From Oscillospiraceae bacterium (GTDB taxonomy: Bacteria; Bacillota; Clostridia; Oscillospirales; Oscillospiraceae): 32,674 bases of DNA. The notes beneath the pieces are model-generated. The model was not told the origin of the DNA. It saw nothing but the letters and a program-made list of their open reading frames with translations, and did no database searches. This document shows positions 6,084 to 12,566 of this stretch, piece by piece. The first letter of the stretch is position 1, and every line of letters begins with the position of its first letter. The DNA lies in contig JAFQFH010000065.1 in assembly GCA_017398685.1 (NCBI GenBank), positions 1 to 32,674 on the forward strand, given 5' to 3'. The translations under genes and the position numbers were made by a program.

Positions 6084-7366
6084 CTTATATTGTACTCCTC
6101 AGCGGCCACGTATTTTTCGTAGAGCTCCCTGTCCACGCCGTTTTTCTGGATGATTTCAGCGTAGAAGCTGCCGGATTTTTTCACAACCCGCTTTTTCTCT
6201 GCGCCCTCGATGGAGACAATGCCGAATTTGGCGTGATTGCCCTCTATCCACTCAAAGTTATCGCAGAAGCACCAGTGGTAATAGCGCTCAAAGGGCAGGG
6301 TGGACTGGGCAATGGCCCTGAGATGCTCGTATATATAGCGGCTGCGAAAGCTGTCATTTAAGTCGCAGGTTCCGTTTTCGGTGATGTATATGGGCCGGGG
6401 CAGGATATCATGGAGCATTTTTGACACTCTCACAATGCCCTCCGGGTATATCTCCCAGCCAAGGTCGTTCTTGGGGCAGTTTTTACGCACCCCGTCGGCA
6501 GGGCCGGAGATGGTGGAGCGGCTATAGTAGTTGACACCGATAAAGTCAGAGTATTCCCCTCTGGGCAGGCCCCAGCGGTTTTTGAGGGGCAGAGGGAAGT
6601 CCCCAAGGCTCATGGCCCGGCTCAGTGCGCCCTGGAAAAGATGGTCAATGCCTTTTGCAAAAAACACATGGGCCGGGTTTCTGGGGTTTTCCGGCTCAAA
6701 GACGCGCACATGGTTTGCAAAGCCCACCTTTGTGTCGCTATAGCCCATTTTCCGGCGCAGGCTATGGATAATGCCGTAGGCCTTGATGTGGGCGCAGGCC
6801 ATGTTCTCCATGACTGCCACGGTCTCCTTGAAACTTTTATGTCCCGGCGGCCACATGCCGAAGCACCAGCTGTTGGTGGCGTAGACATTGGGCTCGTTGA
6901 TGGTGATATAGTCGGAAACGATATCCCCGAAATGCTCCACCACCTGACGCACCAGAGCCAGAAAGTCCGCAATATTCTCACTTTTTGAAAATCCGCCCTT
7001 GTTTTCATACCACATGGGTACGGAAAAATGGTGGATGGTGAGAAGGGGGACTATCCCCTTTTCCTTCATCAGAAGTATTTCGTCCCGGTACTGGGCGAAG
7101 GCGGCCTCATCGTAGCGGCCCTTTTCCGGCTCAAGCCTTGACCACTCAAGGGAGAAGCGGTAGGTCTTTATGCCAAGCTCCGCCATAAGAGCCGTATCCT
7201 CACGCCAGCGCAGCCAGTGGTCGTTGGCGGTGGCGGGGTCTGTGCCGTCGGTGATGCGGCCTTTTTTGTACCAGTCGTTCCAGTTGGAGTTTGTGTCGCC
7301 CCCTTCTATCTGGGTAGCGGCGGTGGAAACGCCCAGCAGGAAGTTTCCGGGCAGGGTAAATTCCAT
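6080..7366 (-). CDS. Beta-glucosidase-type glycoside hydrolase, family 1
   Basis: 428 residues, slightly short of the usual 440-470. GH1 landmarks: FSLEWSRLEPEKG (71-83), TINEPN with acid/base Glu158, YITENG with nucleophile Glu330, and DNFEWIEG near 369-376. The position normally read as YWSLLDNFEW is HWCFCDNFEW, so the +1 region is not standard. Known chemistry: retaining hydrolysis of beta-linked glucose or galactose. A 6-phospho substrate is not indicated. No signal peptide. The start has GGAGGTG six nt upstream. First gene of the GH1-GH36 operon; a palindromic repeat (7399-7458) lies just upstream, and no clear promoter could be read between them. Confidence 0.93.
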   Translation of the reverse strand: MEFTLPGNFLLGVSTAATQIEGGDTNSNWNDWYKKGRITDGTDPATANDHWLRWREDTALMAELGIKTYRFSLEWSRLEPEKGRYDEAAFAQYRDEILLMKEKGIVPLLTIHHFSVPMWYENKGGFSKSENIADFLALVRQVVEHFGDIVSDYITINEPNVYATNSWCFGMWPPGHKSFKETVAVMENMACAHIKAYGIIHSLRRKMGYSDTKVGFANHVRVFEPENPRNPAHVFFAKGIDHLFQGALSRAMSLGDFPLPLKNRWGLPRGEYSDFIGVNYYSRSTISGPADGVRKNCPKNDLGWEIYPEGIVRVSKMLHDILPRPIYITENGTCDLNDSFRSRYIYEHLRAIAQSTLPFERYYHWCFCDNFEWIEGNHAKFGIVSIEGAEKKRVVKKSGSFYAEIIQKNGVDRELYEKYVAAEEYNIR

Positions 7367-7398
7367 ATTACACCTCCGGTGTATAGTTTTGTGGTTGA

Positions 7399-7458
7399 CA
7401 CCTCATCCGCCCCTTCGGGGCACCTTCCCCTCAAGGGGAAGGCCTTGAGGCCTTTTTT
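7399..7458 (+). repeat. Palindromic repeat, copy R1 (forward), with terminator-like tail
   Basis: Order: box CACCTCATC (7399-7407), hairpin GCCCC-TTC-GGGGC (7409-7421), hairpin CCTTCCCCTCAAGGGGAAGG (7423-7442), then AAGGCC-TTGA-GGCCTT and a T-run (7439-7458). The same box, two-hairpin order and TTC loop recur in R2-R4. R1 faces R2 with 122 nt between them. Confidence 0.88.
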
Positions 7459-7580
7459 GACACTGGGTTTCCTCTCAGCTGGAAAGCCAAGGTCACAGCT
7501 TACGCACGCATTCAAGAGAAACCCACAGCTTTTGATTGTGTGCATATATTGGATTGCAAAATGCTGTCATTCACTAAAAG
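7459..7580. other. Spacer between repeats R1 and R2
   Basis: No gene seen. It holds an inverted repeat GGGTTTCCTCT (7465-7475) / AGAGAAACCC (7515-7524). The last 7 nt are the end of the DUF559 frame, including its stop. A promoter for the GH1 operon could lie here, but no convincing -35/-10 pair was found. Confidence 0.5.
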
Positions 7581-7972
7581 CCTTCCCCTTGAGGGGAAGG
7601 TGCCGAGCACAGCGAGGCGGATGAGGTGGACATATGCCGGAGTATATCCTCACACACACTTTCAAAATGCTGATTTATGTCCCGGTTTGAATAGCGCAAA
7701 ACACGAATTCCTTGAGACTTCAAGTATTCATCCCTGATTTTGTCCGCATCCTGACCCTCCGGCTCATAGTGCTGACTTCCGTCCAGTTCTATAACCAGCT
7801 TTGCTTCGGCACAGTAAAAGTCAACAATATAGTTTCCTATTGTTTTCTGACGATTTACAGTCTGCGGCAGCTGTTTAAGGAAGTCATACCAAAGTTTTCG
7901 TTCTTCCTTAGTCATCTTTTTCCGCAAGCTTTGCGCGGTCGGAGTTAGGCGGCGGTTATTTCTATTGTTCAT
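7574..7972 (-). CDS. DUF559 / Vsr-like endonuclease domain protein embedded in repeats
   Basis: 132 residues. The DUF559 (COG2852, PD-(D/E)XK-like) core is visible: helix MTKEERKLWYDFL, then NYIVDFYC with the probable catalytic Asp, LVIELDGSQHYE with the acidic and Gln residues, then RVLRYSNRDI. Known for the family: related to very-short-patch-repair nucleases, cellular role largely unknown. The last 18 or so residues, Ser/Ala/Pro-rich and ending SPQGEGF, are encoded by repeat R2 and are not part of the fold. The start ATG at 7972 sits six nt after GAGGTG, which is the end box of repeat R3. So both gene ends depend on repeat copies. Longer in-frame starts run backward through R3 and are less likely. 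Confidence 0.85.
   Translation of the reverse strand: MNNRNNRRLTPTAQSLRKKMTKEERKLWYDFLKQLPQTVNRQKTIGNYIVDFYCAEAKLVIELDGSQHYEPEGQDADKIRDEYLKSQGIRVLRYSNRDINQHFESVCEDILRHMSTSSASLCSAPSPQGEGF
7581..7628 (-). repeat. Palindromic repeat, copy R2 (reverse)
   Basis: Reverse complement of the R1 layout: stem CCTTCCCCTTGAGGGGAAGG (7581-7600), a weaker middle stem GCC...GGC (7602-7618), box GATGAGGTG (7620-7628). It is translated as the C-terminal tail of the DUF559 protein. Confidence 0.86.
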
Positions 7973-7978
7973 ATAAAA

Positions 7979-8023
7979 CACCTCATCAGTCACTTCGTGA
8001 CAGCTTCCCCTCAAGGGGAAGCC
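7979..8023 (+). repeat. Palindromic repeat, copy R3 (forward)
   Basis: Box CACCTCATC (7979-7987), hairpin GTCAC-TTC-GTGAC (7989-8001), hairpin GCTTCCCCTCAAGGGGAAGC (8003-8022). Relative to R1 the outer pair of the second stem changes from C-G to G-C, and the first stem differs on both arms while keeping pairing and the TTC loop. Confidence 0.87.
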
Positions 8024-8091
8024 AAGCCTTATTTTCAGGGCGTACGCATTTGCCAAAACTTGCAGCAACATCCTTAGTCAATCGTCAAAGG

Positions 8092-8141
8092 CCTTCCCCT
8101 TGAGGGGAAGGTGGCAGCCCGAAGGGCTGACGGATGAGGTG
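8092..8141 (-). repeat. Palindromic repeat, copy R4 (reverse)
   Basis: CCTTCCCCTTGAGGGGAAGG (8092-8111), hairpin CAGCCC-GAA-GGGCTG (8115-8129), box GATGAGGTG (8133-8141). It ends 9 nt before the stop codon of the SdpI-like gene. The spacer to R3 (8024-8091) holds no gene. Confidence 0.87.
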
Positions 8142-8150
8142 GAGAAAAAG

Positions 8151-8537
8151 CTATCTTTCCTTTTTCCGTCTGCCGGCCTCGTCAAAACTTCTTTTCAGCG
8201 CTCTTTCTATTGGGATAATAGAGCACATCATCACCACAAGCTGTACGCCGCATATGACAAGCCCTACCAGAGCGATCGTATCAATATCCCTGCCGAAGCA
8301 AAAGAAAAGGGGCAGCACCGAAGCGAGCAGCGCAAGCCCCAGCCTTATCCAGAGCTTGCCGCAGTAAGCATGGGCAAATTCCCAGGTCTCCACGCTTTTC
8401 ATGGACATGGCAGTCCTGTAGCCGTAGGTCATATTTATCTTCTCCGGCGGATTTTTCATGAACACCCGGCCAAAGCCTATCATCGTAAAAGGGATAATGA
8501 GATCCACAAGTATCATAAATATCAAAAAACCGAGCAT
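8151..8537 (-). CDS. Small SdpI-family membrane protein, 128 aa
   Basis: Four probable membrane segments: residues about 2-25, two hydrophobic stretches in 65-100, and one near 88-112, with a basic C-terminal end. The motif between them, TYGYRTAMSMKSVETWEFAH followed by CGKLW, is the SdpI signature also seen in the larger SdpI gene at 29175. Known: B. subtilis SdpI gives immunity to the SdpC toxin, but most family members are uncharacterised. No toxin gene lies nearby. It starts 2 nt after the trmO stop, with AAGGGG inside the trmO 3' end as ribosome binding site, so it is the last gene of the miaB-mutS-CPBP-trmO run. It could be an orphan immunity or envelope-stress protein. Confidence 0.72.
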   Translation of the reverse strand: MLGFLIFMILVDLIIPFTMIGFGRVFMKNPPEKINMTYGYRTAMSMKSVETWEFAHAYCGKLWIRLGLALLASVLPLFFCFGRDIDTIALVGLVICGVQLVVMMCSIIPIERALKRSFDEAGRRKKER

Positions 8538-9237: not shown

Positions 9238-9966
9238 TCACAAAAGCTGCTGTGCCGCCGTGAGCACTTTCAGGGAAATACCGTTTATCAGCATATGGAA
9301 GAAGATGCTGCTCCAGATGCTGTTGGTGCTCTCATAAATCCGGCACAAAAGGAAGGACACGGGGATATACTGCAAAACATATATCCAGTAGGAAGGCTCA
9401 ATAATGGCAAAGCTCCATACATGGTACACGGAAAAGCTCAGCACGCCGATTACATACGCGCTTATGCGGTTATAGTGGCGCAGAGTGCCGAAAATGCCGG
9501 CGCGAAACAGCATCTCCTCCACAATGGGGGCAAGGTACACCGCCATTGCCGCAACCGGGCCATAGCTTATCAGGGCCATATCCGTCACCGCCTGATTGTT
9601 GGGGTTTCCCTCGCTGGAGATGAAATTCAAAATCATCCCAAAGAGCATATTGCAGCAGAGCATCACGCCATAGCTGCCAAGAAGCTCAGCAATTACCTGA
9701 AAGGGTCTTTCGCAGAGGGCGTCAAAATCCCGCCGGAGAAACTTAAAGCAAAGCCCCAGCATGAAAAGAGTACCCACAAGGTAAATTCCCACATTGGCAC
9801 CCGTATCGTCCACAATGCCCTTTTGCATCAAAGCCACAAAAGCAAGCGGCAGAAAACCCACGTGCACCGGCAGATAGGAGAGCACCGCTATGCTCTCCAT
9901 CCTGCCAAGACGGCTTGTAAATTCAATTTTTCTGGGGGGCAGGGGGCTGCCCTTTTCCTCGTTCAT
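9238..9966 (-). CDS. CPBP family intramembrane metalloprotease (CAAX/Abi type)
   Basis: 242 residues with about six to seven hydrophobic segments. The conserved motifs lie in the C-terminal half: EEMLFRAGIFGTL (motif 1, Glu-Glu and Arg), SFSVYHVWSF (motif 2, with His) and IFFHMLING (motif 3, His). Known for the family: membrane-embedded proteases related to Rce1, in bacteria linked to bacteriocin immunity or protein processing; the substrate is unknown here. The start overlaps the mutS stop by one base (TGATG), so it is translationally coupled to mutS. Its presence beside an SdpI-like gene is suggestive, because both families include bacteriocin-immunity proteins. Confidence 0.87.
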   Translation of the reverse strand: MNEEKGSPLPPRKIEFTSRLGRMESIAVLSYLPVHVGFLPLAFVALMQKGIVDDTGANVGIYLVGTLFMLGLCFKFLRRDFDALCERPFQVIAELLGSYGVMLCCNMLFGMILNFISSEGNPNNQAVTDMALISYGPVAAMAVYLAPIVEEMLFRAGIFGTLRHYNRISAYVIGVLSFSVYHVWSFAIIEPSYWIYVLQYIPVSFLLCRIYESTNSIWSSIFFHMLINGISLKVLTAAQQLL

Positions 9967-12566
9967 CAGCCTCTCGCTTTCCTTTGTAGCTCAAAGAGCA
10001 TATTCATGGCCTCAATGGGGGTGAGGGTATTTATATCCGTCTCCATGAGCATTTTCCGTACCTCATCGGCGCCCACGTCCTGAAAGCTTATCTGCTCTGT
10101 AGGGGCGTGCTGAGTCTGCGGTATTGCCGCGCCCTCCTTTTCAAGCTCCTTAAGGCAGCTTTTGGCCCGGCTTATTATACCCTCAGGCAGACCGGCAAGC
10201 TTTGCCACTTCGATGCCGTAGCTGTCGTCTGCGCTGCCTCGGACTATCTTTCGCAAAAACACCAGATTTCCGTTTTGCTTTTTGGCGCTTATGTTGTAGT
10301 TTGTCACTCCCGCCAGCTCCCCTTCAAGGGCGGAAAGCTCGTGGTAGTGGGTGGCGAACATGGTCTTTGCACCCAGCTTCCTTTTGTCGGCGCAATGCTC
10401 CAGAACGGCGCGGGCTATGGCCATGCCGTCAAAGGTGGAGGTGCCCCGGCCTATCTCGTCGAGAATGAGAAGGGAGGCGGCGGTGGCGTTTTTGAGGATG
10501 TTTGCCATCTCGTTCATCTCCACCATGAAGGTGGACTGGCCGGAGGCAAGGTCGTCGGAGGCGCCGATGCGGGTGAACACCCTGTCCACAATGCCGATGA
10601 CGGCGCTTTTTGCCGGGACAAAGGAGCCCATCTGCGCCATTAAAACGATAAGGGCGGTCTGGCGCATATAGGTGGATTTACCGGCCATATTGGGGCCTGT
10701 TATAATGGCCACCCGCTCGGCGCTGTCATTCAAAAGGGTATCATTGGGGACAAAGAGCACGTCCTTCAATGTCTGCTCCACCACAGGGTGGCGTCCCTCA
10801 ATTATCTGAAGGCTGCGGCTTTCGTCCACCTCCGGCATGGTGTAGCCGTTTTTCACCGCAACCTCGGCAAGAGAGCAGAGCACATCCAGCTCCGCCACGG
10901 CCTGCGCCGTGGCCTGAACCCGGTGCACCTTGCCCGCAACGCTGCGGCGTATCTCGTCAAAGTAGTCAAACTCAAGGGTGTTGACCCGATCCTTTGCCGT
11001 GAGCAGGGTGCTCTCCAGCTCTTTAAGCTCCTGAGTGAAGTAGCGCTCATTGGAGACAAGAGTCTGCTTTCTTATATAGTCTTCCGGGATATTGTCCTCC
11101 CCGGCGGACTTGGGCACGTCAATATAATAACCAAAGACCTTATTGTAGCCCACCTTCAGCTTTTTTATGCCGGTGCGCTTTCGCTCTCTGTCCTCAAGCT
11201 CTATGACCATGGCCTTGCCATTGTCCCTTATGGCGCGAAGCCTGTCCACTTCCTCGGAGTAGCCCGGGCGGAGGATGCCGCCTTCACGGACGGAGAAGGG
11301 GGGCTCATCGCAGATGGCACGGTCAATCTCAAAGCGCATATCCTCCAGCGCGTCCATGGCGCAGATGCTCCTTAAGTACTGGGAGGAAAAGCCGGTCAAA
11401 AGCTCCTTGAGCCGGGGCAGCACCGCCGCGCAGTTTGCAAGGGAGCGAAGGTCCCGCCCGCCGGCAGAGCCGTACACACAGCGGCCCACAAGCCGCTGCA
11501 TATCGCTTATCTCTTTAAGGTTCAGCATAAGCTCGGCCCGGCACACATTGTCCCGCCTCAGCTCGTCCACCGCTGCAAGGCGGCGGCGGATGGCAACCGC
11601 GTGGAGCAAGGGTCTTTCCACCCAGGCACGGAGCATTCTGCCGCCCATGGGGGTTTTGGTCTTGTCCAGCACCCAGAGAAGGCTGCCCCGCTTCTCGCCG
11701 GAACGGAGAGTTTCGGTAAGCTCAAGGGAGTGGCGGGTGGCCCAGTCCAGCTCCATATATCTGCCGCCGTGGATAAGCTCCATGCGGTTTATGTGGCTCA
11801 GGTCAAATTTCTGAGTCTCTTTCAGGTAGGCAAGGAGCGCACCGGCGGCGGAAGCCGCGGCAGGGCAGGCTCCAAGGCCGCTTTCGTCTATATCCTTATA
11901 GCCAAACTGCTCACAAAGCAGCGCGGCGCAGGGGAAAAACTCAAACTTCTCCTGAGCCCGCTCGATTATCGCGCCCAGCTTTGCGCCCAGAAAATCCACA
12001 ACGGCAGGGTCGGCAGCGGCGCTGTCGCTTAAAAGCGCTTCTTTCGGCGCAAAGCGGCCCAGCTCGTTTACAATGTGGGTGGAAGCTCCGCTTTCAAAGG
12101 CGGCAGCATAAAATTCGCCGGTGGAGATGTCGCAGAGGGCAAGGCCGCCCTCGCCGCCGTTTATGTTCACCGCACAGATATAGTTTGAGCGCTTTTCCTC
12201 CAGCATGGAGCTTTCCGTCACTGTGCCGGGGGTGATGATGCGGATGACCTCACGGGCAACAATGCTTTTGGCAAGGGCCGGGTCCTCGGTCTGCTCGCAG
12301 ATGGCAACTTTGTAGCCCTTGGCGATGAGCCGGGCGATATAGGCCTCGGCGCTGTGGTAGGGCACGCCGCACATGGGAGTGCGCTCATCAGGATTTTCCA
12401 CGTTCCGGTCACGGGTGGTAAGGGCAATGTCCAGCTCCCGTGAGGCGATCTTCGCGTCCTCGTCGAACATCTCGTAAAAGTCCCCAAGGCGGAAGAACAA
12501 AAGGCAGTCCTGATGCTGGGCCTTTATCTCGTTATACTGCTTTTTCATGGGTGTAAGCTCAGCCAT
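9966..12566 (-). CDS. mutS: DNA mismatch repair protein MutS
   Basis: 866 residues, full length. The mismatch-binding domain holds FFRLGDFYEMF (about 24-34) with the Phe-x-Glu wedge; then connector, core and clamp domains; then the ATPase domain with Walker A GPNMAGKST (about 624-632), STFMVEMNE, Walker B LDEIGRGTSTFDG (about 702-714) and ATHYHEL. The C-terminal helical dimerisation segment (TDINTLTPIEAMNMLFELQ) is intact. Known role: recognises mismatches and small loops and recruits MutL. It lies downstream of miaB, separated by 134 nt that hold nested inverted repeats. The ribosome binding site is weak (AGAGAG about a dozen nt upstream), which hints at low expression. Confidence 0.98.
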   Translation of the reverse strand: MAELTPMKKQYNEIKAQHQDCLLFFRLGDFYEMFDEDAKIASRELDIALTTRDRNVENPDERTPMCGVPYHSAEAYIARLIAKGYKVAICEQTEDPALAKSIVAREVIRIITPGTVTESSMLEEKRSNYICAVNINGGEGGLALCDISTGEFYAAAFESGASTHIVNELGRFAPKEALLSDSAAADPAVVDFLGAKLGAIIERAQEKFEFFPCAALLCEQFGYKDIDESGLGACPAAASAAGALLAYLKETQKFDLSHINRMELIHGGRYMELDWATRHSLELTETLRSGEKRGSLLWVLDKTKTPMGGRMLRAWVERPLLHAVAIRRRLAAVDELRRDNVCRAELMLNLKEISDMQRLVGRCVYGSAGGRDLRSLANCAAVLPRLKELLTGFSSQYLRSICAMDALEDMRFEIDRAICDEPPFSVREGGILRPGYSEEVDRLRAIRDNGKAMVIELEDRERKRTGIKKLKVGYNKVFGYYIDVPKSAGEDNIPEDYIRKQTLVSNERYFTQELKELESTLLTAKDRVNTLEFDYFDEIRRSVAGKVHRVQATAQAVAELDVLCSLAEVAVKNGYTMPEVDESRSLQIIEGRHPVVEQTLKDVLFVPNDTLLNDSAERVAIITGPNMAGKSTYMRQTALIVLMAQMGSFVPAKSAVIGIVDRVFTRIGASDDLASGQSTFMVEMNEMANILKNATAASLLILDEIGRGTSTFDGMAIARAVLEHCADKRKLGAKTMFATHYHELSALEGELAGVTNYNISAKKQNGNLVFLRKIVRGSADDSYGIEVAKLAGLPEGIISRAKSCLKELEKEGAAIPQTQHAPTEQISFQDVGADEVRKMLMETDINTLTPIEAMNMLFELQRKARG

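Follow-up and report, generated by a model that had tools for sequence, protein, structure and literature searches.

The window analysed here, the whole stretch of 32,674 nucleotides from an Oscillospiraceae bacterium, is contig C63 of a draft 2.1-Mb genome. It contains a small gene of the DUF559 (PF04480) nuclease family, identified by profile and fold matches, whose coding sequence likely runs from 7574 to 7972 on the minus strand (132 amino acids, stop codon at 7574-7576). Four copies of a structured repeat, denoted R1 to R4, surround the gene within 743 nt (7398-8140), as an earlier reading of the DNA, made from its letters alone, had noticed. R1 (7398-7446, minus strand), R2 (7577-7627, plus strand) and R4 (8088-8140, plus strand) belong to subtype A, and R3 (7979-8027, minus strand) to subtype B. 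Each copy is ordered as a palindrome with the core CTTCCCCTTGAGGGGAAG, a copy-specific second hairpin and a GATGAGG tail. The outer context ..GGTG..CGGATGAGG is common to R1, R2 and R4, and ..GCTGTC..GACTGATGAGG is found in R3 alone among the four; the subtype names rest on this context and are only analogous to types A and B of BoxC/PIT/TM repeats. R2 and R3 are inverted, again as that reading had it, and provide the gene with matching ends whose tails both point inward, the tail of R3 lying 6 nt from the ATG. The gene had been placed exactly between the two, a point we correct: its final codons (..SAPSPQGEGF-stop) read through R2, which encodes the C-terminus of the open reading frame. The draft genome holds six palindrome matches with at most one mismatch, and since four of these lie at this locus (the other two are on contig C54) the clustering is not due to chance. 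A known RNA family was considered and rejected, as a search of 7300-8250 gave one sub-threshold match (E = 0.52), inside the gene.

The protein matches PF04480 with 108.4 bits (E = 2.2e-31, curated cut-off 20.6), in agreement with its initial assignment to DUF559, and NCBIfam PRK09767 with 69.5 bits (E = 2.5e-19), under the family cut-off of 218. Residues E24, D51, E62 and D64, among others, are invariant in 51 aligned DUF559 sequences. A structure model (mean pLDDT 84.5, with low confidence at residues 117-132) matches the DUF559 structure 3hrl (Foldseek, E = 5.8e-06), which is also found by sequence profile. The homing endonuclease I-Bth0305I (3r3p) is likewise matched by the model (Foldseek, E = 5.6e-05 and 8.4e-05; TM-score 0.71-0.77 by target) and by sequence profile (E = 0.0011). 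The match to Vsr is weaker (E = 0.06), and a set of mitochondrial ribosome proteins ranks between the stronger fold matches and Vsr. As modelled, the fold is of the PD-(D/E)XK/homing type. The likeness to I-Bth0305I, an EDxHD homing endonuclease, lies in the catalytic-domain fold and the profile match; unlike that enzyme, the window's DUF559 domain stands alone and has structured repeats as its ends. The EDxHD family is described, in the available text of PMC3943268, as derived from phage and as having additional DNA-binding regions and long targets. The DUF559 family of the window protein also includes YcjD of E. coli and VsrA of Caulobacter. YcjD has been assigned to the PD-(D/E)XK superfamily and matches Vsr by profile (PMC1189080), and the Caulobacter DUF559 protein leads to a damage response in cells without a cytosine methyltransferase (PMC12907096); the accessible portions of these two papers treat the proteins as host nucleases and make no mention of such repeats.

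Peptide tails encoded by a repeat, such as APSPQGEG, end DUF559 open reading frames in the window (7574-7627) and at other loci, and may mark the repeat in databases. A mutS gene (9966-12566) lies about 2 kb from the window's DUF559 gene, and in three genomes of the genus DUF559 is found, by eye, directly upstream of a mutS-like gene (L036, L054, L055). At L017, L022 and L057 DUF559 continues in frame into an apparent RNase H gene (by eye) through a linker that holds repeat-encoded peptide, and at L023 an RNase H-like gene (by eye) follows just downstream.

The repeat is built from a first hairpin, a second one that is hypervariable, and a G-rich tail in which the first stem is partly mirrored. 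Across loci this tail tends towards a mirror image of the purine arm (arm AGGGAGG and tail GGAGGGA, for example), which is the signature of an intrastrand DNA triplex. In 39 of 47 types the tail is fitted better by the mirror of its own stem than by the mirrors of other stems (p = 4e-6). Compared with a direct copy, the mirror fits better on average (p = 0.005), yet in just 26 of the 47 types; it is exact in several stem types and imperfect in the window (GGGGAAGG versus GGATGAGG). The second hairpin is hypervariable but paired, in 72% of 81 distinct type-1 linkers versus 13% with shuffled partners. Inward tails on both sides are present at 62 of 129 loci, in the orders A-gene-B (40), B-gene-A (4, the form seen in the window), A-A (11) and B-B (7). 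Unlike A/B pairs show no excess beyond the side biases at these 62 loci, which counts against a mobile unit. In 53 of 145 sequence windows, overlapping ones counted, the triplet AAA lies close to the outer end of a type-1 copy.

This layout recalls the BoxC/PIT/TM repeats. Known from the 1990s onward, these have been found in over 260 genomes and flag unstable loci (Holder et al. 2015, PMC4666352, in the text available). The two share a stem followed by a third, G-rich block, which in the clostridial repeats tends to mirror the purine arm, and two types that pair as inverted repeats; in E. coli K-12, TM types A and B form 5/5 inverted pairs, and some TM pairs in E. coli lack parts, which allows a stem-loop to form (PMC4666352). 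No mobility gene or activity was found near these repeats according to the same text, and the main text of that study names no nuclease, DUF559 or ycjD. The TM finder of Holder et al. permits loops of 1-6 nt (PMC4666352, as far as its text was available), whereas the clostridial repeats carry the hypervariable second hairpin, with linkers of 14-52 nt, and the mirror in the window is imperfect. Because the linkers exceed the permitted loops, we call the clostridial repeats TM-like, not TM.

The sequence-only reading had compared the locus with REP sequences and their RAYT enzymes. RAYT genes are flanked by REPs, and RAYTs are HUH/Y1 tyrosine transposases. The comparison (for REP/RAYT see Di Nocera 2013, PMC3733652, in its accessible part) holds as an analogy, in that short dispersed palindromes lie in inverted copies on either side of an enzyme gene. 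The locus differs in that the enzyme is a PD-(D/E)XK/homing-type nuclease, that no GTAG is seen by eye in any of R1-R4 (CGTC is present on the reverse strand of R4 only), and that the layout is triplex-like. A plain REP/RAYT system is rejected, since the enzyme is DUF559 and not RAYT. In appearance the repeats are closer to BoxC/intrastrand-triplex repeats than to REPs, a likeness that the sequence-only reading had missed.

Comparison with G038, the nearest relative found (flanks 93-95% identical, 71% complete), revealed alleles that differ at both DUF559 loci of this genome. At the window locus G038 has 15 bp instead of 7400-8130, keeping the 3′ part of a subtype A repeat; this allele suggests either a loss or the presence of an older repeat there. 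The second DUF559 gene (contig C72) is flanked by a different repeat, built on CTCCCTC/GAGGGAG, and here G038 has one 32-bp palindrome in place of stem-gene-stem, which resembles the stem-loops of reduced TM pairs in E. coli described by Holder et al. The expected alleles with and without the unit thus exist, but neither is a clean empty site: remnants of repeats persist in both G038 alleles, a target duplication is visible at neither, and the change may have run in either direction, which counts against a mobile unit. Contig C54 has an A/B inverted pair of the same repeat type as the window's, with no gene between the copies (G000:C54, L039 1887-2050) and the A copy interrupted by other DNA; G038 is without a 686-bp stretch that includes this pair, a difference that exceeds the repeats alone.

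DUF559 matches were identified in 32 of 61 genomes of the genus, at 60 places, of which 49 were examined and 46 used in a flank test (three were dropped at contig ends). At most of the loci listed, the ATG comes shortly after one repeat tail, the stop falls within or close to another repeat's inverted tail, and the repeat sequence varies from locus to locus. The two flanks match each other with at least 40 bits at 30/46 of the DUF559 loci and at 2/288 control open reading frames, the latter drawn from 18 of the genus genomes (20 regions, each of 15-20 kb). In a scan of named genomes, for which the best 80 of at least 570 DUF559 relatives were kept (mostly clostridial bins, with Selenomonas, Negativibacillus and one Gastranaerophilales bin), flanks match at 40 of the 74 loci with enough flank. 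Pooling the genus and named loci gives 129, or 125 non-redundant, 118 of them flanked by 150 bp at either end. Within 350 bp, 115/118 of these have a hairpin-plus-tail motif, compared with 11/288 control open reading frames (p = 9e-84), and 74/118 have one on both sides, compared with 0/288 (p = 2e-50), so small DUF559 genes are paired with such repeats far more often than control genes, in support of the sequence-only reading. These counts were made with a loose mirror-tail detector that barely tells mirror from direct or shuffled tails; they therefore stand for a hairpin with a G-rich tail, not for a triplex, and the mirror question was addressed by the covariation tests above.

The association is confined to part of the family. 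Among 29 Bacillota-wide DUF559 loci, the motif was found in 0/9 with proteins of at least 1000 amino acids (fused domains) and in 5/19 with stand-alone proteins, of which three score as close relatives (one of the 29 loci is in neither class). The idea that all DUF559 proteins are alike in this respect is rejected; as fused and divergent members mostly go without the motif, the pairing belongs to a branch of small DUF559. The scarcity of repeats at divergent stand-alone Bacillota genes also speaks against a mobile unit.

To look beyond these taxa, we picked 22 DUF559 loci for taxon spread from 40 and 43 plasmid-collection records, two sets that largely overlap. Flanks match with at least 40 bits at 13/22 loci and at 5/164 control open reading frames from four 50-kb regions. 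Four of the five matching controls are annotated IS transposases and one is a Uma2 endonuclease, and since the matching controls are mostly IS transposases, DUF559 behaves like IS genes in the flank test. The Uma2-family gene (L301 6949-7516, on a Pseudanabaena plasmid; 76 bits, direct) is the sole non-IS control above 40 bits, and its flank match raises the possibility that other small nucleases have repeat partners. Below 40 bits are the loci of E. coli, Deinococcus NW-56 (38.3 bits), Azospirillum brasilense, one Sinorhizobium, Photobacterium, Shinella, Methylobacterium and two Synechocystis plasmids; in several of these nine, repeats can still be made out by eye, in some cases on one side alone, and we count the 9/22 against a mobile unit. 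Best flank matches across loci are direct as well as inverted. An unverified contig labelled bacteriophage from human faeces (L272, MT835749.1), kept out of the 22-locus count, has a DUF559 gene with similar repeats upstream, so that the unit may also travel on phage-like DNA.

Some of these units occupy operon junctions. Sphingomonas has units between sufB and sufC and between transhydrogenase genes, and Deinococcus psychrotolerans has one between paaD and paaZ. Three Deinococcus species carry the unit at different junctions of one hpa cluster; the oxidoreductase gene and hpaE overlap by 4 bp in D. proteolyticus, and at that junction NW-56 has the unit in a 511-bp gap. Such repeats flank DUF559 in Clostridia, Deinococcus, Cyanobacteria and Alphaproteobacteria. 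In E. coli they lie beside it: ycjD is located between sapF and fabI, and three TM-like copies, of which two are degenerate, come after it. Of 5426 E. coli genomes, 3365 contain ycjD and 3312 the adjoining repeat stretch (80% coverage). In two alleles without ycjD the repeats are absent too in the stretches inspected, but other genes occupy the site. E. coli genomes with the ycjD-side stretch (n = 39) have a median of 3 repeat places elsewhere, compared with 1 in the other 21 (p = 2e-5), in a comparison of 60 listed of 5108 matching records that leaves out genomes without any match and does not control for relatedness.

The stem co-varies with the nuclease lineage as it does with the tail: the nearest nuclease relative (below 90% identity) has the same stem core in 77 of 125 cases, with 24.5 expected, part of which physical linkage alone could produce. 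Type-1 palindromes per genome have a median of 6 with DUF559 and 0 without (p = 0.002; p = 0.02 at 90% completeness or more); relatedness is uncontrolled in these cross-genome comparisons. Type-1 copies elsewhere in the genome are not significantly more numerous with a cognate DUF559 than with other DUF559 genes (p = 0.12), a point against a mobile unit. So are the repeat matches in genomes in which no DUF559 was detected, namely G039 (30 matches, 97% complete) and G022, G056 and G037 (23, 22 and 18 matches; 67-79% complete). An exclusive link between DUF559 and the repeats is rejected on these grounds, and the sequence-only reading, for which repeats common in genomes lacking the gene would be adverse, is in part contradicted, for example by G039.

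Small DUF559 genes are associated with the repeats across this range of taxa and between inverted ends, and alleles with and without the unit occur. We propose, with a probability of roughly 0.6, that R3-DUF559-R2 is a very small element that is, or once was, mobile, whose ends are repeats of BoxC/PIT/TM layout and whose nuclease is DUF559. In favour are the flank matches and motif counts, the fit of tail to its own stem and of stem to nuclease lineage, the varied hpa junctions in Deinococcus, the G038 alleles, the homing-type fold and the closeness of listed palindromes to DUF559. Movement, recognition, cutting, copying and triplex formation in cells are what we infer from these patterns. DUF559 would recognise its cognate stem and tail, perhaps folded as a hairpin or triplex on single-stranded DNA, and would cut at the unit ends or at a target; host repair or replication would then copy the unit, or its ends alone, elsewhere. 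Solo repeats and A/B inverted pairs that lack a gene may be non-autonomous copies or relics, and loss of a unit could leave a bare hairpin.

A serious though rather unlikely alternative is that the repeats came first and were spread by other means, with DUF559 a free-standing homing-type passenger that uses them as landing sites and homology arms. It has to be taken seriously because the enzyme has a homing-type fold, and homing at repeats already in place would produce much of the same picture. The genomes that hold repeats without DUF559, the G038 allele that is a bare hairpin, and hence a possible target, and the lack of a significant type-1 excess in cognate genomes all suit a passenger. 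Against this, gene borders regularly abut repeat tails, DUF559 genomes are richer in type-1 copies, and the agreement of stem with nuclease lineage together with the dominance of the A-gene-B order among loci with inward tails favours a true unit. An ordinary host repair nuclease, Vsr-like, with the repeats as its terminators, regulators or decoys, is considerably less probable: Vsr is among the fold matches, the Caulobacter damage response (PMC12907096, in its accessible part) fits such a role and many flanking repeats with T-runs resemble terminators (by eye), but matching repeats stand on both sides and differ between loci and between the two DUF559 genes of one genome, they occur at operon junctions (sufB-sufC and paaD-paaZ, for example), and presence/absence alleles exist. 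Chance encounters with abundant repeats, conceivable where a genome is as repeat-rich as the richest here (105 matches), are rejected as highly improbable by the control open reading frames in the genus and in other phyla, and 13 of 66 palindromes among the matches listed in nine genomes lie within 500 bp of DUF559 (0.09 expected).

No report of a link between DUF559 and such repeats was found in the literature searched, a scope outside which most subscription journals and bioRxiv fall. Seen as the nuclease of a mobile or formerly mobile element, DUF559 becomes a named candidate enzyme for the spread of BoxC/PIT/TM repeats, and one that is directly testable with ycjD in E. coli K-12. More tentatively, at somewhat less than even odds, the units may represent a kind of transposable element found across bacterial phyla, with intrastrand-triplex (BoxC-like) repeats as ends and a small Vsr/homing-type DUF559 protein as sole enzyme. 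If true, this would explain the origin, spread and local instability of BoxC/PIT/TM repeats, would add a second, unrelated enzyme class for nuclease-linked palindromic repeats beside REP/RAYT, and would link homing-type nucleases with triplex-forming DNA. It would also suggest a role for small DUF559 proteins that are annotated merely as unknown.
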